From: Bacteroidaceae bacterium
GTDB taxonomy: Bacteria; Bacteroidota; Bacteroidia; Bacteroidales; Bacteroidaceae
Assembly (NCBI GenBank): GCA_017522915.1
Contig: JAFWXX010000013.1
Coordinates: 1 to 64,000 of the forward strand
Direction of reading: 5' to 3'
DNA: 64,000 nt
Of the stretch, positions 12,004 to 57,005 are shown piece by piece (within the stretch, counting starts at the first letter, position 1; each line of letters starts with the position of its first letter). The notes under the pieces are model-generated. The model saw only the letters and a program-made list of their open reading frames with translations, searched no databases and had not been told where the DNA came from. The position numbers and the translations under genes are program-made.

Positions 12004-12025
12004 CTAAAATGTCAATTTTACAAAG

Positions 12026-12061
12026 AAACACCCTCGTTAGAATACTCTATCGGGGGTGTTT
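12026..12061 (+). terminator. Terminator after the ECF operon
   Basis: An 11-bp stem with one G-T pair (12026-12036 with 12051-12061) has a 14-base loop. It lies between the ECF operon and the minus-strand zinc-ribbon operon and may act on both strands. Confidence 0.6.
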
Positions 12062-12091
12062 GGTCAAAAAAGCTTTTGGATTATCCTCTTT

Positions 12092-12808
12092 TTATATATG
12101 GAAACTTATTATATACAGAGCTATATTCATAATAAGACCGAACACTGCATATACCAAAGCGGATTTTGCTCTAATAGGAGATGTCTTGAACTGTATAAAG
12201 AAATACACCACCCAGGCAATCCAGAAAAGAAAAGCTACTACAATTCCTAATAACTGGGATATCACCTTATCGCTTTTGAAAAGTATTCCATTAGAGTATA
12301 ACTCATAACCCCACAAATCAAACTCTTGGTTAAGATTGCATACATATTCACGAGCAGGGTCAAGTTCTAAGGAAATTTTACAAAGAGCCGGTATGGAGAA
12401 GGATTTTTGTGGCCTTACGACAATATCCATTTTAGACGATTCAATAGGTATACACACCTCAAAACCATCATAGGCATAATATTTTCCAAAATTTCTACCA
12501 TTGACATCTATCTCAACATAGAACTTATCTCTTATGGAGCCACCCTTATAAACAAGTTTCAGCACACCCGGACCATGCAATAAGTTAACACCGGCATCCA
12601 CATCAGGGGTTGACGGGTACTGTGAAGGGGCAGAAACGACAAAAGGCAAGCCACACTCAGAACATTCCGACAAACCAGCTGCGACCATTGCACCACACTC
12701 TGGACATCTGATGAGATTTGCATTCGCTACTGGTGTTCCACAATGAGGACACGATTCAGCCTTATCCGAAACGGTCTTGCCACATACACGACAATTAATT
12801 AAAGCCAT
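12092..12808 (-). CDS. Double zinc-ribbon protein with C-terminal membrane helices
   Basis: A 238-residue protein. Two CxxC...CxxC zinc ribbons occupy residues 4-24 (CRVCGKTVSDKAESCPHCG) and 34-54. A beta-rich soluble domain spans about 75-180, and two hydrophobic helices lie near 185-208 and 215-237. The first ribbon closely resembles the N-terminal ribbons of the proteins at 12836 and 16642 in the same operon, suggesting a shared docking or adaptor module. It is the last gene of the seven-gene minus-strand operon. No catalytic motif is visible and its function is unknown. Confidence 0.75.
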   Translation of the reverse strand: MALINCRVCGKTVSDKAESCPHCGTPVANANLIRCPECGAMVAAGLSECSECGLPFVVSAPSQYPSTPDVDAGVNLLHGPGVLKLVYKGGSIRDKFYVEIDVNGRNFGKYYAYDGFEVCIPIESSKMDIVVRPQKSFSIPALCKISLELDPAREYVCNLNQEFDLWGYELYSNGILFKSDKVISQLLGIVVAFLFWIAWVVYFFIQFKTSPIRAKSALVYAVFGLIMNIALYIISFHI

Positions 12809-12835
12809 AATTATTAGTATTAGGATTTATAAAAA

Positions 12836-14833
12836 CTATTCAACATACACATCATCGGCGTACTCAACATCAACGATCTCAGCAGAGTCCAAAGGAGTTT
12901 CTTCCCTCATTACAGTCAGTTTATCCTTATGTCTCTCAATAAACTCTTTTATTATCTCCTTCTGAGAAATACCTTCTCCTTTATATCTTCCTCCTCTATA
13001 TCCTTGTTTATTTATATCTTCAATTACCCAATCTCCGTCTAAACGAACAAACTCAATTCTATGCAAATCCATAGGACCTAGCCAGCTATCTGTTAACTGA
13101 ACATATACATGCAACGATTTATCGGACACTCTCTCATATTGAATAATCTCAAATGACAAAGTTTCAAAGTCCTGAGCATCTATCCATGAAATAAAATACT
13201 GTTCATCTATAAAATCATCATAGCCGCCTGTTCTTTCAGCCCATGAATCCGCAATATTCCTAGCTTTGTCAAGCATTGATTTGAGTTCAGGCGAATACGG
13301 TACCTGGTATTTGTATTTATTCTCATTTAAGGAATGACAGATATTCTTGATGATATTTTCCAAAGCCACTTTCTCACTATCCGACACATTGTCATCAACC
13401 GTTGTTTCTTCGGGTTCATTGTATGCATCTAAAGCTAAACGAAGACCATTGCTGTAACCTTTTGCATCGGGCTTGCAATAATTCCTGAGAGAGATTCTGC
13501 AATGACGCTCCGGCAGGTCCCAACTTCCGCCACGGATAACACGATGTGTTCCTGTATCCGGGCCTTGAGGATTCTTCTCTGGACTTATGGAATAATAGTC
13601 ACGGTCATACCAGTCGCTGCACCATTCATACACATTACCGCTCATGTCGTAAAGACCTAGTTCATTAGGTTCCTTCTGTTTCACATTAGACGGCGAGCCT
13701 GCACTATTTCCTTTATACCATGCAATCTCATCAACTCGCATATCTCCGCTATAAATATATGAATGGCGTTTCTCTCCCCCACGTGCAGCAAACTCCCATT
13801 CTGCTTCTGTAGGCAGACGAAAACGACAACCTTGGGGCAACTGCGCAGCAAGCAGATCGTTCAACTTGCATATAAAAGCCATACATTCGTCATAGCTAAC
13901 TTTCTCAACAGGATTATTTCCTGACTGGAAATGAGAAGGGTTATTCCCCATCACTGCCAGCCAGAGGGACTGTGTCACCTCCGACTCACCTATGTAATAA
14001 TTGCTTAGAATTACACTATGAACAGGCTTTTCATCGTCATACGCACCACCTTGTTCATGAGTCGCACCCATAACGAAGCCTAAGTTGCCACCACTTACAG
14101 CAACCATCTTGAAAGATACATCACCTAAAGCAAAAGTGCGGTTCTTAAACACTCTACGCTCCGCTTCGGCTGCAGCTGCTGCTATAGAATCACGGCGTTG
14201 TTGCTCAAGCAATGCCAAACGTTCACGTTCGACAGCAGCTATAGAATCTGCTCTATGCTGTTCGGCCGCAAGGGCTGCTTTTCTTTTTGCTTCTTCAGAA
14301 AACGAGATGATAGTCATAGTACAGATTACAGCCAATATAATGATTGATACTACAGATATAAATAAAAGCCTGCTTCTATTCTTCCCTTCATCGGTTTCAA
14401 CTGTGCCATTAATCTCTTGCAAATAGTCAACTATAGGCTTTTCCACCTCAGAATTATCTTCTTCGGACGGAACTTCCGGCACTTCGTGTCTGCAACCGCA
14501 CTCAGGACAAGAACTTTCTCTGTCACTATATTCAAAGCCACACTTACTGCATACAATTTTGTTATCCGATTCCTGACAGGGTTCTGCAATCGGCTGCTCC
14601 ACGCCATTCTTTTCCGTTGGAATTTCATGTACATCATGCCTATTGCCACACTCCGGACAACAATCCTGGTTCTCGCTATATTCAAAGCCACACTCACGGC
14701 ATATTATGGTATTTCCGGTTCCAGGGATGCCGGGCAAAGCAGCATCGTCACCTACAGGAGCGCCGCATACAGAACAGAAATCAGCCTTGTCCGAAACAAG
14801 TTGACCGCATTTTCTACATTCAATTAACGCCAT
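12836..14833 (-). CDS. Zinc-ribbon membrane protein with formylglycine-generating-enzyme-like domain
   Basis: A 665-residue protein. Three zinc ribbons lie in residues 5-120 (CRKCGQLVSDKADFCSVCG first). A membrane helix follows near 155-175 and an Ala/Glu/Arg coiled coil at about 175-225. An SUMF1/FGE-sulfatase domain spans about 230-455, with FRLPTEAEWEFAARGG, MSGNVYEWCSDW and RGGSWDLPERHC. A C-terminal domain (480-640) follows. Aligned on the FGE motif, the second active-site Cys is present (HC) but the first is Leu, so true formylglycine generation is unlikely; a binding role is more plausible. The topology puts ribbons and FGE-like domain on opposite membrane sides. Central gene of the locus. 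Confidence 0.8.
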   Translation of the reverse strand: MALIECRKCGQLVSDKADFCSVCGAPVGDDAALPGIPGTGNTIICRECGFEYSENQDCCPECGNRHDVHEIPTEKNGVEQPIAEPCQESDNKIVCSKCGFEYSDRESSCPECGCRHEVPEVPSEEDNSEVEKPIVDYLQEINGTVETDEGKNRSRLLFISVVSIIILAVICTMTIISFSEEAKRKAALAAEQHRADSIAAVERERLALLEQQRRDSIAAAAAEAERRVFKNRTFALGDVSFKMVAVSGGNLGFVMGATHEQGGAYDDEKPVHSVILSNYYIGESEVTQSLWLAVMGNNPSHFQSGNNPVEKVSYDECMAFICKLNDLLAAQLPQGCRFRLPTEAEWEFAARGGEKRHSYIYSGDMRVDEIAWYKGNSAGSPSNVKQKEPNELGLYDMSGNVYEWCSDWYDRDYYSISPEKNPQGPDTGTHRVIRGGSWDLPERHCRISLRNYCKPDAKGYSNGLRLALDAYNEPEETTVDDNVSDSEKVALENIIKNICHSLNENKYKYQVPYSPELKSMLDKARNIADSWAERTGGYDDFIDEQYFISWIDAQDFETLSFEIIQYERVSDKSLHVYVQLTDSWLGPMDLHRIEFVRLDGDWVIEDINKQGYRGGRYKGEGISQKEIIKEFIERHKDKLTVMREETPLDSAEIVDVEYADDVYVE

Positions 14834-14849
14834 TATCCTCTAAATTATA

Positions 14850-15170
14850 TCAATCATCCAAAATACCGCCTAGCAAACCGCCTAAGAAAGCACCTGCCAC
14901 AGCAAGACCGCCACCGCCACTATCTCTCTCCTCTACAACAGTCTTGGTATTGTTAATGATAACCTTCTCCGGTGCCTTTATTGCTGACGGGAAAGCACTC
15001 TCACAATACTCACATGCAACATTATTCGTAACAGGAGCACCACAGTTCGGGCAATTGCTCAAGCCTGTCTGATTTGAGAACTTTGAAACTGTCGGATTAC
15101 CGCATTCCGGACAACAATAAAGACTCTCGTTATAACTCATTCCACATTCACTGCATCTTACCATAATCAA
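14850..15170 (-). CDS. Small zinc-ribbon protein with glycine-rich hydrophobic tail
   Basis: A 106-residue protein with two zinc ribbons (CSECGMSYNESLYCCPECG at residues 5-23, then CPNCGAPVTNNVACEYC near 39-55), a short linker and a Gly-rich hydrophobic C-terminus (GGLAVAGAFLGGLLGG) that could insert in a membrane or oligomerise. Its start overlaps the stop of the upstream gene by 4 bases and its stop is 16 bases before the FGE-like gene, showing tight coupling. Function unknown. Confidence 0.75.
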   Translation of the reverse strand: MIMVRCSECGMSYNESLYCCPECGNPTVSKFSNQTGLSNCPNCGAPVTNNVACEYCESAFPSAIKAPEKVIINNTKTVVEERDSGGGGLAVAGAFLGGLLGGILDD

Positions 15171-15541
15171 CTGTTTTTAATTGAAAAAAGATATGTAATC
15201 ACAAGCAACAATAATTGAATAGCAACAATGGCGGCAACACTCATTACATAGACATTATCGGAGAATACCGCCGGGGAGAGTGCTGCCAGAACGAATTCAA
15301 CAACTCCTGAAACAACAAACAGGAAAGTAAGTGAAATCTTGAACGCATCTTTCAGGAAGTTCTTGCACAACGTACACAAAAATGCAAGATTTACAAGAAG
15401 AACAACCGATGTGAAAACCAGATTGAATCGCTCATAACCGCTAAAGATTGCTCCTGCCAACAAATTGATGGCAAAAAAGAGTATAAATACAATAAATACG
15501 TATATCATGTTCTTTACATATTTGGTAATGGAGGAGGACAA
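15167..15541 (-). CDS. Small integral membrane protein
   Basis: A 124-residue, almost entirely hydrophobic protein with four predicted helices (about 12-31, 36-57, 68-90, 96-120). It overlaps the SPFH gene by 28 bases upstream and the small zinc-ribbon gene by 4 bases downstream. No family is recognised. It may be a membrane subunit of the complex built by this operon. Confidence 0.65.
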   Translation of the reverse strand: MSSSITKYVKNMIYVFIVFILFFAINLLAGAIFSGYERFNLVFTSVVLLVNLAFLCTLCKNFLKDAFKISLTFLFVVSGVVEFVLAALSPAVFSDNVYVMSVAAIVAIQLLLLVITYLFSIKNS

Positions 15542-16626
15542 CTCACAAAAAATGAAGCAAACTCAGGTACGTTCTGAATTTTGTCCCAATTAGCCATTCC
15601 TTGTTTCCAGACAAATGTTCCTGAAGATACTGTGCCGTTGTTTATCAATGCAGAAACAACATTAAAGTCGTACGGTCCCTGTGATTGGCCATTCAAGGCC
15701 AAATGATACATTGTCGCTTGTGGCAATGGAGGCGGAGTTGCTGAAACCGGGCTTACATTCATATTTGCCCCTAGAGTGCCCGCAGCCTGAGTGCCGACAT
15801 TCATGCCGACACCTAAGCCAAGACCTGCACCGACAAGACCACCTGCTGCACCTTCATTTGAGGCAGCATTATCCAAAACATTGAAGCTTCTGTCCATCTG
15901 ATAGATGTCACGTCCGGCAATTTTCACTCTTGCAGCAAGGTCTTTCGCCTCCTTAAGTTTCATAAAGCTTGGGTCGTCTTCCTTAACGCTTATAGACATG
16001 ACATCGAATGTCTGCACAGAAAGACCATAACGGCCAAAACTTTGCGATATCCTCTCCTTGCAGTATTCAGATATATCTGCTAAATGAGAATTGATATTAA
16101 GCACACTTATATTATCCCTTGTCAGTTTGTCGGAGATGATATTTGTCAACTGCGACATTATGTTTCCTTTGAAATAGCGGTTCAATTTGTCAACAGAGAA
16201 CGAAGACATATTGCCTATCAGCGATTCCATAAAGGTACGAGGATTTTCAATACGGAAACCGTACTGCCCATAGGAACGTATCGGAACGATAACCTCATAT
16301 TTAGGGTCTTCTATTTGCAAAGGAGTTGCTGTTCCCCATTTTGAATCAAGAATTGCAATCTGGTTTACAAACCATACTTCTGCTGTAAAAGGCGTGTCTC
16401 CGCCAAAAGGAAGATTGATAAGCTTGTTCAACAGTGGAATATTCGATGTCTTCAAGGTATATGTACCCGATTCGAATTCATCAAATATCCTGCCACCTTT
16501 CACAAAAAAAGCCGTTTGGCCCGGATAAACGACCAATTGCGTTCCCATACGCAGATCTTCGCTTGGGAACTTAGCTACAAGTTCGCGACTGTTCATCGCG
16601 CACTTCACGACATCTATTATTGCCAT
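15514..16626 (-). CDS. SPFH-domain protein with C-terminal GYF_2 domain
   Basis: A 370-residue protein. An SPFH/prohibitin-like domain spans about residues 30-235, with GQTAFFVKGGRIFDEFESGTY-type sequence and no N-terminal membrane helix. A Gly/Ala/Met-rich linker (255-295) and a Pro stretch (SATPPPLPQ) follow. The GYF_2 domain (about 305-355) has the pattern GQSQGPYDF...WKQGMANW. SPFH proteins assemble into membrane-associated rings; GYF_2 domains bind proline-rich peptides. The protein may be the scaffold of the locus, with its own Pro-rich segments as possible ligands. Confidence 0.85.
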   Translation of the reverse strand: MAIIDVVKCAMNSRELVAKFPSEDLRMGTQLVVYPGQTAFFVKGGRIFDEFESGTYTLKTSNIPLLNKLINLPFGGDTPFTAEVWFVNQIAILDSKWGTATPLQIEDPKYEVIVPIRSYGQYGFRIENPRTFMESLIGNMSSFSVDKLNRYFKGNIMSQLTNIISDKLTRDNISVLNINSHLADISEYCKERISQSFGRYGLSVQTFDVMSISVKEDDPSFMKLKEAKDLAARVKIAGRDIYQMDRSFNVLDNAASNEGAAGGLVGAGLGLGVGMNVGTQAAGTLGANMNVSPVSATPPPLPQATMYHLALNGQSQGPYDFNVVSALINNGTVSSGTFVWKQGMANWDKIQNVPEFASFFVSCPPPLPNM

Positions 16627-16641
16627 AATTCAATAAAACAA

Positions 16642-17094
16642 TTAATAATAAACATTCCTGAAAATAGCATCGTAGTTCATGTATATCAGAGAAATGATGT
16701 TAAGGACAAAGAACACCAAGCCTACCATTTCCCAGGAATCCTGTACGCGTTTAAAATGAACCGGGTTATCCCATTTCTTATACTTCTGGGCAAGTCGTCC
16801 TCCGTTGAAGCCCATATACAATGATGCAGCGACATGAGCTACGACGATAAACGACGCCGGAACAAAGATAAATGCCATGGAAATAAGAATCAGCCACCAC
16901 ATTCCATTTGCGAATCCCCAAATAGGCCAAAGCCCTGCAGCTCCCCAATTAAACTTGTTTATACAACTCTCAAGATCAACATTCTCTTCATGTGTCTCAT
17001 GACCGGCAGCGTTGAGTACCTTACCGCATTTAGGACAAGACACTGCTTTCTCAGAGATACTGCTTCCACAACCTGGACATTGAATTAAAGCCAT
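16642..17094 (-). CDS. Zinc-ribbon membrane protein (DUF2628-like)
   Basis: A 150-residue protein. The N-terminal ribbon CPGCGSSISEKAVSCPKCG (residues 6-24) resembles those at 12092 and 12836. An FNWGAAGLWPIWGFANGMWW segment and three hydrophobic stretches (about 50-95 and 122-142) resemble DUF2628-type membrane proteins. It lies 15 bases before the SPFH gene. Probably an inner-membrane component of unknown function. Confidence 0.7.
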   Translation of the reverse strand: MALIQCPGCGSSISEKAVSCPKCGKVLNAAGHETHEENVDLESCINKFNWGAAGLWPIWGFANGMWWLILISMAFIFVPASFIVVAHVAASLYMGFNGGRLAQKYKKWDNPVHFKRVQDSWEMVGLVFFVLNIISLIYMNYDAIFRNVYY

Positions 17095-17144
17095 AATATA
17101 TAAATTTAAAAATTAATACACTAATCCATTATGATATAAGCCTA

Positions 17145-17423
17145 TCAGTCCAATATTTCCCAAGCAAAGCTATCGCCATCATAGACAACATTTACAGCAT
17201 GGTCGTATGTACCTCCATCATACCTTAGCCTTACAACACCGGTATAGTAGTTTCCTTCCTCGTGAACAAGCGTGAGATTGACAATTGACACACCTATTTG
17301 TCCTTCTTTAATGAATGTTTCACGCATTGACTTACGCACCTCCCTGTTCAATTGAGATGTTGTAAGTTTTTGGCACGACAACAACAATGCAGAAATTGCT
17401 ATTGCAAACAAAAATTTCTTCAT
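17145..17423 (-). CDS. Small lipoprotein, first gene of the zinc-ribbon operon
   Basis: A 92-residue protein with a signal peptide and lipobox ALLLSC (Cys about 17). The mature part ends with a compact beta-rich domain (YTGVVRLRYDGG...YDGDSFAWEILD). The frame is open 62 codons further upstream, but that stretch overlaps the structured RNA and terminator, so the ATG at 17423 is chosen. It lies 50 bases before the zinc-ribbon membrane gene. Confidence 0.7.
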   Translation of the reverse strand: MKKFLFAIAISALLLSCQKLTTSQLNREVRKSMRETFIKEGQIGVSIVNLTLVHEEGNYYTGVVRLRYDGGTYDHAVNVVYDGDSFAWEILD

Positions 17424-17455
17424 GATTCCCCCTTTGGCTTTTAGAATTAAACAAT

Positions 17456-17700
17456 AAAAAAGCGTGAGCACAACTTTTACCCAAATGGAGGCCTTCGACT
17501 GCCTGTACGAAAGATAAAAGAAAAACAGCTCACGCCCTTGGGGATATATGCGTATAGTTACATACATACATGCACCAAAGGAGAGAAGGTTGTTTACTTT
17601 ATATTCCAATCGTACTGTGAGTTGTCGAAGTTCACCATTTATGGAATAAAGCTAAAACGCTCCCTAAATAATGTCTTGTCGCAAGGGACAAAGCCCTAAC
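17456..17700 (-). ncRNA. Structured ~245-nt RNA or leader with own promoter and terminator
   Basis: On the minus strand the transcript would run from about 17700 to 17456. It ends in an intrinsic terminator: GCGTGAGC (17535-17528) pairs perfectly with GCTCACGC (17469-17462), followed by six T (17461-17456). Upstream are further hairpins, including TTGTC/GACAA (17676-17691) and ATTCCA/TGGAAT arms flanking a GTGA...TCAC element. A consensus promoter sits at 17708-17736. It could be a stand-alone RNA, or an attenuating leader of the operon starting at 17423. The family is not identified. Confidence 0.6.
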
Positions 17701-17707
17701 AACATGG

Positions 17708-17736
17708 CAAAGATAGTAAACTTTTATTAAAAGCAA
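17708..17736 (-). promoter_or_regulatory. Promoter for the structured RNA / zinc-ribbon operon
   Basis: On the minus strand TTG (17736-17734), an 18-bp spacer and TATCTTTG (17715-17708) match the Bacteroidetes consensus. The predicted start is near 17700. Confidence 0.65.
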
Positions 17737-17867
17737 CCATCTGCGAGCTGTTTTTCATTTTCGTCAAAGATATATCATTAACAGCAAAGCGGAAACAGAA
17801 ACTGCGACCATTTCCTCCATTTGCGTCCATTTCACTAATTACAGAACAGAATATTGATAAAATATCG

Positions 17868-17875
17868 TACTTTTG
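17868..17875 (+). promoter_or_regulatory. -7 element for the DNA-binding/kinase operon
   Basis: TACTTTTG matches TAnnTTTG. It lies inside the upstream extension of the next open frame, so transcription should start after it; this supports the ATG at 17912. The rest of the gap (17737-17867) holds nothing recognisable. Confidence 0.6.
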
Positions 17876-17911
17876 CAAAATACAGGACCAAACGACTGTA
17901 CAGGCAAAGAA

Positions 17912-18463
17912 ATGAAATTTACACCTTATATAATAGAACTGCTAGGGAAGGAGTGTGGAAGGGAAATAAGGATACCGGCAGACTGTGAATTCCTCGCACT
18001 TGACATTGAAAGCAAAACAAAGACCCATATAGGCTCTACAACCCTGAAACGCCTCGTTGGCTTTACCAACGATGAACGCACACCTCACGCCTCTACCCTT
18101 AACACAATAGCCGGTTATCTCGGACACCGGAGCTGGGAAAAGCTCATTGACATTGCCGACAAAAGCAATTCGGCAATAGACTGGCATAGCCATGAGGTAC
18201 GCTCTTCGGAACTAGAAACCGGGTGCAAAGTAGAGATCACATATCTGCCCGACCGGAAAATTACATTCAGATATAACGGTGAGAATAACTACACAGTTAT
18301 AGAAAGCATAAACAGCAAATTGCAGGAAGGAGATATATTGGAAATAACTAACCTCATACTAGATCATCCCATGTATGCAAAGAGCGTACGCAGAGGGACA
18401 GAAACAATTGGAGAATATACAGCGGGAATAATTTCCGGAATATCTTCTATAAAGATTATTTAA
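17912..18463 (+). CDS. Probable DNA-binding protein of a Bacteroidetes HTH-like family
   Basis: A 183-residue protein. The N-terminal half carries a pattern frequent in Bacteroidetes regulators and phage-type proteins: STTLKRLVGF followed by TPHASTLNTIAGYLGHRSWEKL, suggesting a helix-turn-helix fold. The C-terminal half (about 90-180) is beta-rich with no known motif. It lies 7 bases before the kinase gene, so the two are co-transcribed and divergent from the zinc-ribbon operon. It may regulate the locus or be a kinase substrate; both are inference. Confidence 0.6.
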   Translation: MKFTPYIIELLGKECGREIRIPADCEFLALDIESKTKTHIGSTTLKRLVGFTNDERTPHASTLNTIAGYLGHRSWEKLIDIADKSNSAIDWHSHEVRSSELETGCKVEITYLPDRKITFRYNGENNYTVIESINSKLQEGDILEITNLILDHPMYAKSVRRGTETIGEYTAGIISGISSIKII

Positions 18464-18470
18464 GACAGAC

Positions 18471-19751
18471 ATGGAAACATCCATATTCAGTGAGAGCTGC
18501 AATACAGAAAAATACCTGGAGAAGATAGAGACCAGAGGTGCTACATGCGACACTTTTCGCACAAAAATGTACGGAAAGCTTGTTTTTGTAAAACGCCTTA
18601 AGGAGAAATATATATCGGACATAAGATACCGGGAAGCACTGAAAAAGGAATTTGAGGTTGGGTTCAGAATGGAGCATCCCAACCTGCCACGATACATTTC
18701 ATTCAACGGCAATGAAATCTTGCTTGAATACATTGACGGTGAGACCCTTACAGAGAGAATCAAGAACAATCCCGAATACTTCACAAGAAAAGAGAACAGC
18801 GACAAGTTCATAAGCCAGCTCCTTTCTGCCGTAAAGTACATGCACCGCAATCAGATCCTGCATCTTGACATCAAGCCCGACAACATTCTCATTACACGCA
18901 TAAACAATGATGTAAAGCTTATTGACCTTGGCTTCTGTTACACCGACTGTTATACCGACACCACTGGGCACACAAAACAATTTTGTTCACCAGAACAGTT
19001 GAAAGGCAATTCCATTGACGAACGCAGTGACATCTACTCGATAGGACGCATTATAGAACTTCTTCCGAACAAGCACCTTTACAGGAAGATTATCACACGC
19101 TGCACTGCCAAAGACAAGGACGAACGCTACAAAAAAGTCGAGGATATTTCATTGCCAAAGAATCGCAGATGGAAGTTTGCTCTCATTGCAGTATTTGTTT
19201 CAGCAATACTCATTATTGTATTAATGGCACAGCATAACAGAGAACAAGAAGAGCCTGCACGCCATATTGCAACAGAGATAAAGAAACAAAGCAGCAGACC
19301 TATCATACAAGAGGTACGTGACAGCCAATATCAGGAGAAGGCAAAACCGCTAAAAGCCGAAACCAAGAAGAAGCCAACACCCAGTTTGAAAGAAATGCTT
19401 GAACAGGATGAGGAATACAAGAGAAACATTGCAAGAGCATACGAATCGGGAAGATTATACCGGCAGAAAATGGAAGAGGATTTTGAAAAATTCAAGCCTA
19501 AATTGAATGAATACCTGAAGGATATTATAGACTTTGTCAACAATGACAAGTTCCTTAAAGAACACCCGTCATATCTTGAATACAATGCAAAATATAAAGA
19601 ATTATGGAGAGAGGCATTGAATAGAATGTCATATGATGAGTGGACCTACAAATACTACAAGAGCCTGGATAACCCTTTCTCTACATTCAAAAGCGATTTA
19701 GTTGACAGTATTGAAAGAAAATTCCAAAGCAATGCCAACAAACTGCCATAG
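18471..19751 (+). CDS. Transmembrane Hanks-type Ser/Thr protein kinase
   Basis: A 426-residue protein. The compact kinase domain (about 15-230) has VFVKR (Lys41), catalytic loop HLDIKPDNIL (Asp133, Asn138), IDLGF in place of DFG (Asp152), SPEQL and the alpha-F Asp187. All key catalytic residues are present, although the glycine loop is degenerate. A membrane helix follows at 235-253, then a charged outer region with coiled-coil character (about 255-420) and no sensor domain of a known type. This is the usual single-pass eukaryote-like kinase layout. It is paired with the HTH-like gene and faces the zinc-ribbon/FGE-like operon. Confidence 0.9.
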   Translation: METSIFSESCNTEKYLEKIETRGATCDTFRTKMYGKLVFVKRLKEKYISDIRYREALKKEFEVGFRMEHPNLPRYISFNGNEILLEYIDGETLTERIKNNPEYFTRKENSDKFISQLLSAVKYMHRNQILHLDIKPDNILITRINNDVKLIDLGFCYTDCYTDTTGHTKQFCSPEQLKGNSIDERSDIYSIGRIIELLPNKHLYRKIITRCTAKDKDERYKKVEDISLPKNRRWKFALIAVFVSAILIIVLMAQHNREQEEPARHIATEIKKQSSRPIIQEVRDSQYQEKAKPLKAETKKKPTPSLKEMLEQDEEYKRNIARAYESGRLYRQKMEEDFEKFKPKLNEYLKDIIDFVNNDKFLKEHPSYLEYNAKYKELWREALNRMSYDEWTYKYYKSLDNPFSTFKSDLVDSIERKFQSNANKLP

Positions 19752-19770
19752 AAGCAAAACATGGAAGACG

Positions 19771-30659: not shown

Positions 30660-32261
30660 ATGACAAAGATAATGCATAAAAATTACAATCAAAACGATTC
30701 TCTCCTTCTTCCTCCCTCTTTGGGTGAACTTATACCTCTTACTCACCCGGTACGTATTGTAAGCGACATTCTGGACAAGTTCGACATCAGTGATATCGAG
30801 TCCACTTACAAGAGTGGCGGCACCAGCAGCTACCACCCCCGTATGCTTCTCAAAGTAGTGGTGTATGCCTATCTATGCAATGTCTATTCGGGCAGAAAGA
30901 TGGAAAAGCTACTGCATGAGAATATCCATTTCATGTGGCTCAGCGGCATGAACAGGCCCGATTTCCGTACAATCAACCGTTTCCGAAGCGAAAGGCTTTC
31001 CGGCGGTCGCCTTGAGGGCGTGTTTACCAAGGTTGTAGAACTGCTTAACAGCGAGGGTCTTGTTTCCCTTAACGTGCAATACATAGACGGCACCAAGATT
31101 GAATCCGTAGCAAACAAGTACACCTTTGTATGGAAAGGCAGCGTCGAGAAGAACAAAGCCAAGCTGGTAAACAAGGTGCGTGAAGTACTGTCTGCCGCAG
31201 AGAGGGAACTTGCGATTGAAGAATCCTCTGAAGCCCCCGAAGAACTGCCACAGGATGAGTTCGAACGTCGTTCAGAGAGGATTCTCTCCAAGATGGACAG
31301 CATGGGAATAAGCAAGGGCAAACAACGTCGATTGGTTGAGAAAACCGTAGCGGACAGTGTCGAGAAGATTAATGAGTACGACCGTCACCTTGAAACCCTT
31401 GGCGAGCGCAACAGCTACAGCAAGACCGATCCCGATGCTACCTTCATGAGGATGAAAGAGGATGCGATGAACAACGGACAGACAAAACCCGGATACAACG
31501 TGCAGGTATCTACAGAGAACCAGTTCATTACCAATTACGGCATATATTGGCGTCCTACAGATACGGGAACCCTTATTGATTATTTGGAGTCATTCAACGA
31601 CAGATACGGCAGACAAAGCACAGAGATTGTAGCAGACTCCGGTTATGGCAGTGAGCAGAACTACAAATACATGTTTGACGGCGGGATGATACCTTATGTA
31701 AAGTACAACATGTTCCACGCAGAGATGAAAAGGAAATACAAGAACAATCCCTTTCTGCCAGACAATATGTATTACAATAAGGAACAAGACTATTATGTAT
31801 GTCCGATGGGACAACACATGGACTTCGCCTATTATAAAAAAGAAAAATCAGAGCTTGGTTACATATCCACTAAACAGGTGTATATGGCAAAGGACTGCTC
31901 AAGATGTCCGCTACGGGGAATGTGCTACAAAGGGAAGGTCGACAGGCGAACCATTGAAGTCAACCACAGGAACAACGCATACAGGGCAAAGGCAAGAGAA
32001 CTGCTTATGAGCGAAGAGGGACTGATGCATAGAAGCAAAAGACCGATAGAGCCTGAAGCGGTCTTCGGAAACATAAAGTTCAATCACGGTTTCAAGCGTT
32101 TCAGACTGAAATCGGCAGAAAAGGTCTCTGTCGAATGGGGACTTGTGGCCATTGCCCACAATCTTAGGAAGTATATTGCCCGAAAAACGGAAAAAAGCAA
32201 CTGTCAAAGACTTTTTATTGCCAATATTGGAGCATATTTGGAATGTTGTCGGGCGGCATGA
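30660..32261 (+). CDS. IS1182-family DDE transposase
   Basis: A 533-residue full-length transposase. The N-terminal domain (about 1-100) has YKSGGTSSYHPRMLLKVVVYAY. The catalytic residues are probably the Asp in YIDGTKIES, the Asp in IVADSGYGSEQ and the Glu in VEWGLVAIAHNLRKY. A central Lys/Glu-rich insertion (about 160-240) and a Cys cluster (CSRCPLRGMCYKG) near residue 420 are typical of the family. No frameshift or stop is seen, so the element may be active. Confidence 0.93.
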   Translation: MTKIMHKNYNQNDSLLLPPSLGELIPLTHPVRIVSDILDKFDISDIESTYKSGGTSSYHPRMLLKVVVYAYLCNVYSGRKMEKLLHENIHFMWLSGMNRPDFRTINRFRSERLSGGRLEGVFTKVVELLNSEGLVSLNVQYIDGTKIESVANKYTFVWKGSVEKNKAKLVNKVREVLSAAERELAIEESSEAPEELPQDEFERRSERILSKMDSMGISKGKQRRLVEKTVADSVEKINEYDRHLETLGERNSYSKTDPDATFMRMKEDAMNNGQTKPGYNVQVSTENQFITNYGIYWRPTDTGTLIDYLESFNDRYGRQSTEIVADSGYGSEQNYKYMFDGGMIPYVKYNMFHAEMKRKYKNNPFLPDNMYYNKEQDYYVCPMGQHMDFAYYKKEKSELGYISTKQVYMAKDCSRCPLRGMCYKGKVDRRTIEVNHRNNAYRAKARELLMSEEGLMHRSKRPIEPEAVFGNIKFNHGFKRFRLKSAEKVSVEWGLVAIAHNLRKYIARKTEKSNCQRLFIANIGAYLECCRAA

Positions 32262-39985: not shown

Positions 39986-42775
39986 TTATTTCGTAACCAC
40001 ACGCTTTACATACTTATTGCCGTTCTTTACAAGATAAACTCCAGCAGGCAAATTATCAACACCAGTAACTTTTTTACCATCAAGTGTATATATATCGCAG
40101 GCTGAACCTTCATCCGCAACACACTCTTCAATAGCAGTAGTGTTAACCAAAGAAACCGTAAAGCGGTTGTTGCATGTACCTGCAGTGGCATTGAATGTAT
40201 AGCCACAAACAGAAAGGTCGGTCTTACAGCCCGTAAGCTGGTCGGTAAGTACGACAGAAAGATTGCTGTCGGGATTATCGAGCAAAGAAAGTGTATACTC
40301 ACCATCTTTGCCAAAATATGCACCCAAACCTATCACACCAGTTCCCAAAGGACGTTCGTCAATGGCAAACTGCACACCATTGTCACTAATATACAACTGT
40401 GGAACATCGGCATTGCTACTCAAAAACTTGCCTGCATCGCAGTTTATCTCATAGTCCATGCTTGCATTTTCATTAACAACCAGTCGCGCACGGTCTGCAT
40501 ATTCAGAATTTTTCAACACGAAGTTATATACTGAGCGCGAAGAAAAAGATTTGCTTACGTGGTGTGCAGATGGCGCTCTGTATTCATCATAATTATCCAA
40601 ATAGTGCAAACGTCCTTCTTTTTTGAACACGATAGAATTGGAATCAGCCGGGCGCTGCACAAAGAAAGCCTCATTTGGTGTCAGCACATAGTTGTCGTCG
40701 AGCAGAGAGTAAGCCGTATAACCATCGCCATTCCACACTGTGATGGGGGCATTGAACTCCATATCGCGAGTGTTGAAATAAGATGGATATGGATTGCCTA
40801 CGAGATTCCAAGAACGGTTATGCGCATACTCTGCCGGGTATTCGTTCAGCACACGAGTAACATCGGTATGTGCAAACAGCGTTCCAGAATCACTGCTTAC
40901 AGAAGGGAAACTGACACAGACTTTATCACTTTCTTCGTAATAAAAATGGAATATATATCCTTCACCGGCTTTCAGTGTCATTCCATCGGTCATGTTCTGC
41001 CAAGTGTTGCCTGTCATATTAGCACGGTCACTGCCCGAATACTTGCGTATGACCCAAAGCACACCCTCGGGAACAACAATATCAGACACGTTCACATCAT
41101 AAGGGAAAGATATGAAATTCCAACGTCCGTCGCACATATACAAATGTGTGCAAACACTATCGGCTGTAATAGCATTCTGGGCAATAAGAGTTGTACAATA
41201 AGGATAAATGTAACTGTTATCGTCGTAATCATAATCATAACTATACAAATCTTGATACTGCTCATATTTTCCTAAAGATAGTGCTGAATTTGCATTGACT
41301 GTCAATTTTGCATCTGAAGAAAGTGTTATATCTATCTTGTCAGCCAATCCTGCATAATCATAGATTGCAAATTCATTATTGATATTCAATTTCTCCAAAT
41401 CACCTTCAATTGGCACAGTTTTTGCAAAATTGTACCAATTATCGTGCAAACGATAGCTGTTTATACTAAATTCCGGAACGTGCAAGGTTGCATGTGCCAT
41501 ATTACTGAAATTAGTTGTTGGAAGAGGGACAAGACAATAACAATATACATCAGTCACTTTTGATGTATTAAATGAATTAGATTCAATTGATGTAACAGTA
41601 GAGGGAATAGAGATTACAGTAAGCGAACAATCTCTGAAAGCGCTATATTCTATTGTCTTAAGGCCTTCAGGGAGTATTGCTTTTGTCAAACCAGAACCAT
41701 AAAAAGCGCTATATTTAATATACTCCAATGATGCCGGAAATTCAAAATCCTTTAACGATTTACAATTATTAAAACAATAACTCGAAATCTCACGTACATT
41801 CGGCATTGTTACCTTTGATAATTTTTCACAGTCATAAAAAGCAGAATTTCCAATAGTTTCAGCTTTGGGTAAATCAATGCTTGTCAAAGCATTACAACCA
41901 TAAAAAGCAGAATTTCCAATAGTTTCAGCTTTGGGTAAATCAATGCTTGTCAAAGCATTACAACCATAAAAAGCAGAATTTCCTATGGAAACTACGTTGG
42001 GAAGTGATATTGAACTCAAGAGATTACAACCAGAAAATGCACTTTCTTCCACAGCAACAACTGTTGAAGGCAACATAACAGTCTTTAGATATTTCAAACC
42101 GTTACAACCTGTCATTGATGTTATATCAGTCTGTGACAAATCAAGAACAACCATATTTGTCAAACGTGACAAATATGCCAAATCCGCTGTATTCAGGCTA
42201 CCACTCAATGTCAAACTTTCTACATCAGTCCATTGCTCAATCTCGTTCAACAACAGATGACCAAGCTGCCCTGCTGAAGGTACATTAATATTGTATTCGT
42301 TATACCCTGTTGAAAAATTATGGCCAAAAACTATATTCATACCATCAGAACCTTCAAACCGAAAGTACAACTTTTCATTATTCATTTTACCGCTGAGGTT
42401 ACCTATGTTATAATATGTATTACCATAATTATACTTTACTATTATTTGGCTTGCCTGAAAATACTTTACTCCATCTATTTCTTCAACCACAACAACATCA
42501 GCAAGAATTCCATAAACATAACTTGACAAACCATCACAATCCAATGTCAACTTACTTATTGTAGCGTAATGTTCAACAGTAACATTAGCCTGTGTGGTAT
42601 AACTACCATTATAATATAAATAAACATCATCGGTATATCCAACCGGAGCACCAGACTCTACATTTTTCTCATTGGAGATGTTCAATACCAAAGGAGTATT
42701 GGTAAAACTTTGTAAAGAGACACTGCACAGCAACAGCAGCGCAGTAAATAGATGTTTAAAGTAATTGTGTTTCAT
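39986..42775 (-). CDS. BspA-like leucine-rich repeat surface protein
   Basis: A 929-residue protein with a signal peptide (1-24). LRR_5/BspA repeats span about residues 195-450, of the type GCNALTSIDLPKAETIGNSAFY. Beta-rich modules follow, and the Por sorting tail DIYTLDGKKVTGVDNLPAGVY ends the protein within its last 40 residues. BspA-like proteins are surface adhesins binding host or matrix proteins. Two repeats are identical at DNA level. The 23-base gap to the giant gene suggests joint transcription. The ligand is unknown. Confidence 0.88.
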   Translation of the reverse strand: MKHNYFKHLFTALLLLCSVSLQSFTNTPLVLNISNEKNVESGAPVGYTDDVYLYYNGSYTTQANVTVEHYATISKLTLDCDGLSSYVYGILADVVVVEEIDGVKYFQASQIIVKYNYGNTYYNIGNLSGKMNNEKLYFRFEGSDGMNIVFGHNFSTGYNEYNINVPSAGQLGHLLLNEIEQWTDVESLTLSGSLNTADLAYLSRLTNMVVLDLSQTDITSMTGCNGLKYLKTVMLPSTVVAVEESAFSGCNLLSSISLPNVVSIGNSAFYGCNALTSIDLPKAETIGNSAFYGCNALTSIDLPKAETIGNSAFYDCEKLSKVTMPNVREISSYCFNNCKSLKDFEFPASLEYIKYSAFYGSGLTKAILPEGLKTIEYSAFRDCSLTVISIPSTVTSIESNSFNTSKVTDVYCYCLVPLPTTNFSNMAHATLHVPEFSINSYRLHDNWYNFAKTVPIEGDLEKLNINNEFAIYDYAGLADKIDITLSSDAKLTVNANSALSLGKYEQYQDLYSYDYDYDDNSYIYPYCTTLIAQNAITADSVCTHLYMCDGRWNFISFPYDVNVSDIVVPEGVLWVIRKYSGSDRANMTGNTWQNMTDGMTLKAGEGYIFHFYYEESDKVCVSFPSVSSDSGTLFAHTDVTRVLNEYPAEYAHNRSWNLVGNPYPSYFNTRDMEFNAPITVWNGDGYTAYSLLDDNYVLTPNEAFFVQRPADSNSIVFKKEGRLHYLDNYDEYRAPSAHHVSKSFSSRSVYNFVLKNSEYADRARLVVNENASMDYEINCDAGKFLSSNADVPQLYISDNGVQFAIDERPLGTGVIGLGAYFGKDGEYTLSLLDNPDSNLSVVLTDQLTGCKTDLSVCGYTFNATAGTCNNRFTVSLVNTTAIEECVADEGSACDIYTLDGKKVTGVDNLPAGVYLVKNGNKYVKRVVTK
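41833..41964 (-). repeat. Exact 66-bp tandem duplication inside the LRR gene
   Basis: Bases 41833-41898 are repeated identically at 41899-41964; a third unit begins the same way at 41965 and then diverges. The unit is exactly one 22-residue LRR, so copy changes keep the frame. Confidence 0.9.
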
Positions 42776-42841: not shown

Positions 42842-43089
42842 AGGACCGGATTGATATTTCCATGGCGTAAACGCAAAGATTGGTTACCTGGATAAATATT
42901 TGAGGCGATGCAATAAAAAAAGACGTGAGACTTTGTTGCCTTACGTCCACGAATCTTAGGCATCGCCAAACGCCCTAACAGAATGAACAGTGAAGAAACA
43001 ATATTCCCACGCCGTGATATATACGTGGGAATGTACCGAAGGTACTTCACCGGCATATACACAGAATGAGCATTGATTGCTTCGGTCCT
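42842..43089 (-). ncRNA. Large structured RNA candidate in a 691-bp gap
   Basis: AGGACCGGA (42842-42850) pairs with TTCGGTCCT (43081-43089) to close the whole element. Inside, GGCGATGC/GCATCGCC (42904-42911, 42960-42967) encloses GACGTGAG/CTTACGTC (42922-42929, 42940-42947). GTGAAG/CTTCAC (42990-42995, 43045-43050) encloses ATTCCCACG/CGTGGGAAT (43003-43032) and a GTACC-GAA-GGTAC hairpin. On the minus strand the inner hairpin is followed by seven T, like a terminator. It could be a leader of the BspA-like gene (start 42775) or a free RNA such as a 6S-type RNA. Strand and family are uncertain. Confidence 0.55.
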
Positions 43090-43407
43090 CTGTTTAAAAT
43101 TTGGCGAATTTAAGATTCGGACTTAAAACAAAATGCTTTTTAATGTTGATGTATTTATTATATTAAACCACTTTCGCTCGGCAAAGCAAGTAAATTTTTT
43201 TGCTCTCGCTTAAACGTGGTTTTCTCCTCATCAACGCCACGAAGATAGCACAAAAAAGCGAAATATCAAAAAGAATAAATGCTTTTATACAAGCAACATA
43301 TCACCGCATTATAGCAACAACGTTTTCCCTGCAATCAATGCTCAATTGGAATATTATTTCTTCACATAGAAGTAATACAACGTAGACATATTTTAAAAGG
43401 ACTATTC

Positions 43408-45513: not shown

Positions 45514-45544
45514 TTGTTTATTTAATATAATAATTCTAAATTTG
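45514..45544 (+). promoter_or_regulatory. Promoter at the start of the polysaccharide locus
   Basis: TTG (45514-45516), a 20-bp spacer and TAAATTTG (45537-45544) are a clean Bacteroidetes promoter, 51 bases before the ugd ATG. Confidence 0.75.
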
Positions 45545-45595
45545 CATGTTAAGACATTGGCAACCAAAGGTTGTCATAGCCCAAAACAGAGTATC

Positions 45596-46834
45596 ATGAA
45601 AATTGCAGTTGCCGGAACCGGATATGTGGGATTGAGCATAGCAACACTGCTGGCTCAGCACAACAAAGTAACAGCCGTTGACATTGTCCCCTCGAAAGTG
45701 GAGATGATAAACAGGCGCATATCCCCTATCCAGGACGAATACATAGAGAAATATTTTGCCGAGCGTGAGCTCGATCTTACAGCAACGCTCGATGCCGAGA
45801 CCGCATACAGCGATGCCGACTTCGTTGTTATAGCCGCCCCTACGAACTACGACAGGGCAAGGGATTTCTTTGACACCTCGGCTGTCGAAGATGTCATAAA
45901 GCTGGTAAAGCAGTACAATCCCAATGCTATCATGGTCATAAAGAGCACTATACCAGTAGGCTTCACAGCTGCGATAAGAGAGAAGCTGAAGACCGGGAAT
46001 GTACTTTTCTCGCCGGAGTTCCTTCGCGAGAGCAAGGCACTGTACGACAACCTTTACCCCAGCCGTATCATTGTCGGACGCCCCGAAGACGATACGCGCC
46101 TTGACAAGGCAGCCCGCACTTTCGCATCACTCCTGCAGCAAGGAGCAGAGAAGAAAGATATCCCGACGCTCATCATGGGGCTTACCGAAGCCGAAGCCGT
46201 AAAACTGTTCGCCAACACCTACCTCGCATTGCGCGTGAGCTATTTCAATGAGCTCGACACCTATTCCGAGATGAAAGGGTTAAGTTCCCAGGAAATCATC
46301 AGCGGCGTATGCCTCGACCCACGCATCGGCAACCACTACAACAACCCCTCTTTCGGCTACGGCGGCTACTGCCTGCCGAAGGACACCAAGCAGCTGCTTG
46401 CCAACTACCGCGATGTTCCGCAGAACATGATGAGTGCCATTGTAGAGAGCAACCGCACACGCAAGGACTTCATTGCCGACCAGGTACTGAACAAAGCCGG
46501 ATACTACGACTACTACAGCTGCGGCGATTACCATGCCGGCAACGAACATGAATGCACCATAGGCGTTTATCGGCTCACAATGAAGACCAACAGCGACAAC
46601 TTCCGCCAGTCGTCGATACAGGGAGTGATGAAACGAATCAAGGCCAAGGGAGCAGAGGTCATCATCTACGAACCGACATTGGAGAACGGCAGCACATTCT
46701 TCGGAAGCCGCGTAGTAAACAATATAGAAGAGTTCAAGAAAGCGTCGCACGCTATCATAGCCAACCGCTACGACAGCATCCTCGACGATGTAAAAGAAAA
46801 AGTATATACCCGCGACATTTTCCGCCGCGACTGA
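45596..46834 (+). CDS. ugd: UDP-glucose 6-dehydrogenase
   Basis: A 412-residue enzyme oxidising UDP-glucose to UDP-glucuronate with two NAD. The N-terminal [19 protein letters not shown] binds NAD. The active site includes the Lys of [15 protein letters not shown] and the catalytic Cys in [14 protein letters not shown]. The ATG at 45596 gives the family N-terminus; the frame extends 18 codons upstream across the promoter. First gene of the surface polysaccharide operon. A decayed, divergent fragment of a second ugd lies at 56605. Confidence 0.95.
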
Positions 46835-56523: not shown

Positions 56524-56574
56524 GTAACCGCGCAGGTGGGACACAAATGTCTGTGGTTCGATACCACCGGTTGC
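56524..56574 (+). other. tRNA-like fragment at a recombination scar
   Basis: GTAACCG (56524-56530) can pair with CGGTTGC (56568-56574) as a 7-bp acceptor-like stem. Inside lie a GACA/TGTC hairpin and a T-arm-like GTGG-TTCGATA-CCAC (56553-56567). There is no D-arm and no room for one, so it is not a functional tRNA. It may be a relic of a tRNA end or a chance structure. Confidence 0.3.
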
Positions 56575-56604
56575 TACATACAAAAAACAAACAAAAACAA
56601 TAAT

Positions 56605-56757
56605 TATAAAAATGCAGTAGCAGGAACAGGCTATGTAGGCCTTAGCATCGCCACTCTTTTGGCACAACACAATGAAGTGGTGGCTGTTGATGTAATTCCA
56701 GAGAAGGTAGAGAAAATCAACAACCGAATCTCGCCCATTCAAGACGAGTACATCAAA
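56605..56757 (+). pseudogene. 5' fragment of a second ugd gene
   Basis: About 51 codons match the N-terminus of UDP-glucose dehydrogenase ([20 protein letters not shown] to ISPIQDEYI). The start codon is lost and the sequence breaks off after DEYI. Synonymous sites differ widely from the intact ugd at 45596, so it came from a different ugd allele and not from a recent local copy. Confidence 0.85.
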
Positions 56758-56789
56758 GAAGCGTCTGAGCAGATGTGGAGTTACCGCAC

Positions 56790-56880
56790 ACTCGACCGAA
56801 ACATCTCATCACAATACAATGTGCAGCGAAGCACCTGGCAGAAGCAACACACAACCTCATGCACACAATGGATAATTGAC
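56790..56880 (+). pseudogene. C-terminal remnant of a sigma-like gene
   Basis: The last about 23 codons, read in the frame ending at TGA 56880, give [17 protein letters not shown]..., nearly identical to the end of the protein at 53322. It is joined directly to the ugd fragment and has no start. It marks the left part of duplication copy 2. Confidence 0.8.
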
Positions 56881-56910
56881 TGTCTCCTTTATTTTCATCA
56901 ATTGTCACCT

Positions 56911-56946
56911 CAACACAACCGGCAACTTTTATTGCCGGTTGTGTTG
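56911..56946 (+). terminator. Duplicated terminator
   Basis: A perfect 15-bp stem (56911-56925 with 56932-56946), followed by a T-rich tract. It is the counterpart of 53832-53867 and isolates the TagA/WecG gene from upstream transcription. Confidence 0.75.
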
Positions 56947-57005
56947 TAATATTTTCACCATTCGGGAATATTCTAACTATTTTCAAAGAAAATAGCGTAT
57001 TAGAA

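Follow-up and report, generated by a model that had tools for sequence, protein, structure and literature searches.

A conserved structured RNA ahead of a lipoprotein/zinc-ribbon/SPFH operon in an accessory island of separable modules in Bacteroidaceae

Background

In Bacillus subtilis the pspA-ydjGHI operon combines PspA with an SPFH protein (YdjI), a protein with zinc ribbons (YdjG) and a membrane protein (YdjH) (PMC8581546, PMC11237479, PMC9239133). Recruitment of YdjI to the membrane requires YdjG/YdjH, and YdjI connects PspA to the membrane (PMC8581546; domains in PMC11237479). Similar parts are found in the locus described here, which occupies positions 12004-19770 in a stretch of 64,000 nucleotides from a Bacteroidaceae bacterium (GCA_017522915.1, contig JAFWXX010000013.1, positions 1 to 64,000; hereafter the window). 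Rather than a single obligate kinase-SPFH assembly, this block is an accessory island made up of separable modules, and its lipoprotein/zinc-ribbon/SPFH operon is preceded by a structured RNA. The reading preferred here, to which we give a probability of roughly two in three, is that the RNA heading the operon of this island belongs to a new cis-acting family and probably functions as an attenuator.

Like pspA-ydjGHI, the operon has a Band_7_1 SPFH protein, zinc-ribbon proteins and a small membrane protein alongside, which recalls the dependence of the YdjI SPFH protein on membrane partners. The differences are that PspA is missing from both operon and genome, that the SPFH protein ends in a GYF_2 domain instead of a ribbon, that its partner with four transmembrane (TM) segments differs from YdjH, that the zinc-ribbon proteins are variable and that an RNA leader lies ahead.

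The RNA resembles riboswitches and attenuators as a promoter-proximal structured RNA before a start codon with an exclusive, covarying rod and U-tailed hairpin. Unlike the known classes it has no Rfam 15 match and stands before SPFH/zinc-ribbon and surface-protein genes. With 6S RNA and 6S-Flavo (RF01685; PMC2864571) it shares the shape of a long rod of about 200 nt, but it lacks an Rfam match and occurs in several copies per genome, each before a gene. The HMP2 survey of candidate structured RNAs in human microbiomes gives many Bacteroidetes candidates, some with terminators (PMC8040213).

Results and discussion

An earlier note on this DNA, made from the sequence alone, overlooked an RNA on the minus strand of the divergent intergenic region. 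The RNA and the operon behind it are built up as follows.

17708-17736, minus: Bacteroidota-type promoter TTG-N18-TATCTTTG (pattern match), predicted to start transcription at the RNA 5' end
17451-17682, minus: structured RNA leader of about 230 nt, ending 27 nt before LIPO (covariance model R2, 172.7 bits)
17145-17423, minus: LIPO, first operon gene, lipoprotein of 92 amino acids with a lipobox; its homologue is gene 1 of the operon in genome G023
16642-17094, minus: ZR-TM, leader zinc ribbon and membrane domain (Zn_ribbon_3, 2.7e-6); homologue in the G023 operon
15514-16626, minus: SPFH-GYF, SPFH domain (Band_7_1), glycine-zipper stretch and GYF_2 between PPPLP motifs (Pfam)
15167-15541, minus: TM4, four-TM protein whose gene has an overlap of 28 nt with the SPFH gene; 70/80 loci have a homologue on the 3' side of SPFH
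14850-15164, minus: ZR-D, double zinc ribbon and C-terminal glycine-zipper (Pfam); a zinc-ribbon gene lies downstream of SPFH in 70/80 loci
42912-43161, minus: a further copy of the RNA leader, diverged and 137 nt ahead of the surface-protein gene 39986-42775 (model R3, 55.5 bits, E 9e-8)

The intergenic DNA of the window shares near-identical stretches of 60-70 nt with that of genome G032, against about 70% identity in coding DNA. On the minus strand the window RNA folds at -57 kcal with a fold z of -3.6 to -4.5, and eleven strong copies reach -3.7 to -8.1. On a structure-blind MAFFT alignment a rod of 48 pairs has 90.7% of its cells paired and 22 pairs changed on both sides; its covariation is 0.484, compared with 0.221 when shuffled and at most 0.148 when slid, as expected of a structured RNA. 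In 37 model-fitted copies 43 of the 48 pairs are compensated (covariation 0.647 versus 0.194), although this alignment was fitted to the structure and is biased to the rod, which the MAFFT alignment was not. An initial covariance model, R1, was discarded for its poor alignment and just 9 pairs.

The 3' half can also form a U-tailed, terminator-like hairpin, GUGUGAGC...UUAUCC..AGGC-AGUCGA-GCCU..GGAUAA...GCUCACAC-UUUCUUUU, which covaries as well (0.357, compared with 0.214 when shuffled and at most 0.127 when slid). It is built from bases of the rod, so the two folds are mutually exclusive, and a covarying U-tailed hairpin that excludes the rod before a gene is a hallmark of attenuators. Rfam 15 gave no gathering match in the window and no convincing match at relaxed thresholds in at least nine diverse copies. 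The RNA family is new relative to Rfam 15, a comparison outside which the HMP2 candidate models (PMC8040213) lie.

The prevalence of the RNA is conditional on the loci fetched by SPFH, leader-ribbon and helix-turn-helix (HTH) queries, together with 60% of one genome. With model R3 the RNA is found 5' of SPFH on the same strand in 42 of 73 SPFH loci, and 50 of the 51 matches there are on the SPFH strand. The median distance from the RNA 3' end to the start codon is 49 nt. Immediately upstream, 51/56 copies have a Bacteroidota -7 box (TAnnTTTG), compared with 6.9% of control stretches; none was found at the second window copy (42912-43161). To our knowledge, it is rare outside the known riboswitch classes for a leader RNA to combine two exclusive folds with several kinds of compensatory pair in most of its helices.

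The RNA is not confined to SPFH operons. It precedes MALI zinc-ribbon operons without SPFH (loci L165, L186, L183, L178, L187 and L189), heads small XRE regulator genes (L083, L207, L230, L219/L225 and L220) and is found ahead of a few lipoprotein genes and genes for BspA-like surface proteins. The XRE-type regulators behind the leader (L083, L207, L219, L220, L225, L230) are about 80 amino acids long with the pattern 'I.IG..IR..L......WLA..'. Of 26 HTH-kinase loci, 10 have a copy at most 3 kb away, and four of these 10 were fetched by SPFH. The RNA is also present in cultured gut Bacteroidales (Phocaeicola sartorii JCM 17136, locus L199, and Parabacteroides sp. PM6-13, L203), while the patterns and searches used gave no copies in phages, viral contigs or plasmids.

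The window's own genome is 92% complete, and in the 1.45 of 2.41 Mb (60%) scanned there are five copies, two of them adjoining HTH-kinase pairs. Copies 1 and 2 precede the window operon and a lipoprotein operon that adjoins a second HTH-kinase pair (L097), and copies 3-5 precede surface-protein genes (42912-43161 in the window, and L328) and a lipoprotein gene (L298). The L328 copy was marginal with R2 but reached E 3e-6 with R3. The gene after the second window copy (39986-42775, minus) encodes a large surface protein starting with 'MKHN..LFTALLLLCS'; relatives of this protein adjoin HTH-kinase pairs divergently in L093, L096, L101 and L103.

These observations are explained most simply by an RNA switch that acts in cis and would control an envelope regulon. 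Formation of the terminator would halt transcription ahead of the operon; when the rod forms instead, its 5' arm would capture the 3' half so that polymerase passes, and read-through would yield the SPFH-GYF/TM4/zinc-ribbon set. We infer transcription attenuation, this direction of switching and an involvement of the kinase.

Several points weigh against this reading. About 40% of the SPFH loci have no recognisable copy of the RNA, the G023 operon included. Nor is the RNA bound to one function, since in G032 it precedes a nuclease/AAA/radical-SAM operon. The start and termination of the transcript are predicted from sequence, the E-values of R2 and R3 are rough, and the larger alignment has the structural bias mentioned above. 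In most copies the computed energies favour the full rod over the terminator plus 5' folds by several kcal, and kinetic folding or a bound factor would therefore have to choose the fold.

The same energies would suit a small RNA that is transcribed independently, from its own promoter to its own terminator, and to which the operon is merely adjacent; such an RNA could be 6S-like or a partner of the zinc-ribbon/SPFH proteins. The -7 box, the terminator-like end and the 6S-like rod shape are in keeping with this explanation, the best of the alternatives, but we regard it as doubtful: genomes carry several copies (L204 has two within 3.3 kb, and the 1.45 Mb above contain five), all of them precede a start codon on their own strand by a nearly constant distance, the 6S and 6S-Flavo families of Rfam give no match, and the mutually exclusive folds covary.

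The proteins of the operon were compared with the phage-shock system. The SPFH protein with GYF_2 claimed by the earlier note is supported by Pfam (Band_7_1 4.8e-48, GYF_2 9.5e-16). In a survey of 80 named SPFH loci with at least 49% identity, from a scan of the whole collection, TM4 follows SPFH on the 3' side in 70 loci, a zinc-ribbon gene in 70 and both in 62. Of the partners of the SPFH gene, TM4 is the most conserved. The zinc-ribbon proteins of these loci carry variable partners (TM2, WG repeats, SH3, YARHG, TonB_C and TPR). Proline-rich motifs of the PPPLP type flank GYF_2 and end the SPFH protein in five aligned homologues (window, L062, L063, L064 and L067); with such motifs around GYF_2 it is conceivable that the SPFH protein binds itself through a GYF_2-PPPLP contact.

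It is unlikely that the operon is no more than a Bacteroidales form of the pspA-ydjGHI envelope-stress system. The Band_7_1 model also matches in the B. subtilis control genome, and zinc ribbons with a membrane anchor correspond to YdjG/YdjH (PMC8581546, PMC11237479). However, PspA (PF04012) is not found in the window's own genome and scores above the cut-off in just one of 50 carriers, with the control positive in 9 of 14 genomes; GYF_2 replaces the C-terminal ribbon of the SPFH protein, and TM4 matches no Pfam family. The TPM domain (YdjH-type) is absent from all operon proteins at E up to 1. Membership of a ydjFGHI-type phage-shock system was rejected, with Band_7_1 present and both PspA and the TPM domain missing; because PspA is absent, the core is distinct from that system in spite of its similar parts. 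The SPFH-GYF/TM4/zinc-ribbon set may constitute a membrane scaffold that does without PspA and on which zinc-ribbon proteins, differing in their C-terminal domains, would assemble.

The remaining parts of the island and its boundaries are the following.

12004-19770: hypervariable slot from the '165' gene to mazG, containing the entire block (comparison with genomes G037, G032 and G023)
12836-14833, minus: ZR-FGE, three zinc ribbons, TM, FGE-like domain and C-terminal alpha/beta domain (Pfam); accessory
12092-12808, minus: ZR-A, leader zinc ribbons and two C-terminal TM segments (Pfam); accessory
17912-18463, plus: HTH partner of the kinase, XRE-like HTH and small beta-barrel, with its own -7 box at 17868-17875
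18471-19751, plus: Hanks-type kinase with one TM and an extracytoplasmic part (Pkinase 8e-30, invariant catalytic residues)

The layout given by the earlier note, seven closely spaced minus-strand genes (12092-17423) and a divergent HTH-like gene with a TM kinase (17912-19751), is present, and the minus-strand order from 5' to 3' is LIPO, ZR-TM, SPFH-GYF, TM4, ZR-D, ZR-FGE, ZR-A. Its total of seven is right, but TM4 (15167-15541), the true seventh gene, had been missed. ZR-FGE had been counted twice, as a leader-ribbon protein and as a separate FGE-like membrane protein; the domain exists (FGE-sulfatase 9.4e-46), the separate gene does not.

Within the genus the '165' gene lies close to mazG and is its direct neighbour in most genomes examined. 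In the closest relative, G037 (MazG 96% identical), the slot is empty, with about 0.4 kb between the two genes. In G032 it holds nuclease-like/radical-SAM/AAA genes and an HTH-kinase pair with neither SPFH nor a ribbon gene; this cargo (L082 3519-8556), behind the same RNA leader, encodes nuclease-like, TM and radical-SAM activase-like proteins and an AAA ATPase. In G023, which belongs to this genus, LIPO-ZR-TM-SPFH-TM4-ZR-D keep their order but lie elsewhere on the chromosome and without a kinase, and the mazG slot contains only a ZR-FGE gene, unlinked to the core. The kinase, the core and ZR-FGE thus move separately. The contigs of metagenome-assembled genomes are fragmentary.

The earlier note had combined ribbons, SPFH protein and kinase in one physical membrane assembly with phospho-signalling, and had named independent occurrence of the kinase and zinc-ribbon genes as the finding that would speak against it. 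Such occurrence was found: the core without kinase in G023, the kinase without core in G032, and 25 of 50 genomes with the SPFH operon lacking the HTH partner. A single physical assembly is therefore improbable, even with a leader ribbon common to several locus proteins and with HTH-kinase pairs enriched beside SPFH (in the fetched flank in 8/50 genomes versus 0.23 expected) and, as described above, beside the RNA. What survives of the proposal is a looser link, in co-occurrence and the common leader. Since the modules are found apart and one RNA leader accompanies both HTH-kinase pairs and SPFH/ribbon operons, co-regulation of separable modules is favoured over a common physical complex. The enrichment beside SPFH rests on about four arrangements that look independent (p about 1e-4), with L226, L228, L239 and L241 taken as one case because they have a common block.

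That the element is mobile palindromic DNA, like a miniature inverted-repeat transposable element (MITE), or a recombination site marking exchangeable cargo would suit a hypervariable slot with different cargo behind the same element in the window and G032, but is very improbable and already disfavoured by its same-strand placement about 50 nt before start codons with a promoter ahead, the compensatory changes in 43/48 pairs, and a low copy number with none in phages, viral contigs or plasmids by the searches made.

Pfam places zinc ribbons in four locus proteins. As the earlier note had it, three of them (ZR-TM, ZR-FGE and ZR-A) have a common N-terminal ribbon, MA[LI]I-x-C-x2-CG, which in this genome is found only there and in the family occurs in 50 of 301 genomes. 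Leader ribbon and Band_7_1 are found in one genome in 19 cases compared with about 8 expected (Fisher p = 3e-5, phylogeny uncorrected). The common ribbon was rejected as proof of one complex: it is specific within the genus, but 31 of the 50 leader-bearing family genomes lack a strong Band_7_1. A catalytic FGE was also rejected, as alignment to 6muj puts L440 at the first catalytic Cys and C445 at the second, identically in G023. The C-terminal domain of ZR-FGE was modelled at a pLDDT of 45, too low for an NTF2-like comparison with YdjG. In the PDB entries 5nxl and 7spq (FGE-domain/kinase proteins) the FGE-like domain is part of a kinase protein, whereas here it is on a zinc-ribbon protein. 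In L083 (2059-3600, genome G062) an FGE-domain protein without zinc ribbons directly adjoins an HTH-kinase pair, one more case in which FGE and kinase go together.

The kinase (Pkinase 8e-30) is of the Hanks Ser/Thr type, and the full catalytic set reported by the earlier note is confirmed, with K41, E60, D133, N138 and D152 invariant in 19 homologues. It is like other Hanks-type receptor kinases in its intact catalytic residues and extracytoplasmic part but is paired with a separate HTH/beta-barrel protein. Almost every locus inspected has the two genes side by side; most of the exceptions are due to gaps in gene calling, and in L238 the kinase lacks an HTH gene. The extracytoplasmic part varies between loci, and in the kinases of L090-L096 it resembles leucine-rich repeats. 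The HTH protein was modelled at pLDDT 91; its HTH half weakly resembles EspR/DdrO/CI (Z 5-6), and the best Foldseek matches of its barrel include LSm chains (E 0.03-0.4), with a VIA Z of about 4 that unrelated barrels reach as well. Self-operator palindromes upstream of the HTH gene were not found in 7 of 8 loci.

As a recurrent neighbour the HTH-receptor-kinase pair is a candidate controller of the same regulon, in which the kinase would sense outside and the HTH partner would be cytoplasmic. Because the barrel weakly resembles Sm-like RNA-binding folds, it can be proposed that the kinase phosphorylates the HTH/beta-barrel partner and that this binds the RNA leader and switches the terminator. 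Such a route is a long shot; if true, it would connect a signal from outside the cell with a regulon made up of SPFH scaffolds, zinc-ribbon proteins and surface proteins.

The earlier note knew of no named system with the full gene set, and the searches made brought up none, although the SPFH part is similar to the known pspA-ydjGHI operon. In PADLOC (anti-phage defence) the kinase was matched by generic kinase models only and the other locus proteins had no or negligible matches. The literature searched gave nothing relevant on a Bacteroidetes HTH-kinase pair or on a link between RNA, BspA and kinase.

Elsewhere in the window there is a transposase-like gene at 30660-32261 (plus), and a short stretch at 56536-56949 (plus) resembles the UDP-sugar dehydrogenase-like gene at 45542-46834 and is probably a remnant or frameshifted copy.

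Conclusions

A conserved, covarying, promoter-proximal RNA with two exclusive folds stands ahead of specific genes in Bacteroidales. As a cis-acting switch it would mark a regulon that joins SPFH membrane scaffolds, zinc-ribbon proteins and surface proteins, and it recurs beside receptor-kinase pairs. The signal of the RNA, once identified, would be a direct handle on envelope regulation in Bacteroidota. The SPFH-TM4-zinc-ribbon core appears to be a PspA-independent relative of a system so far studied mainly in Bacillus.

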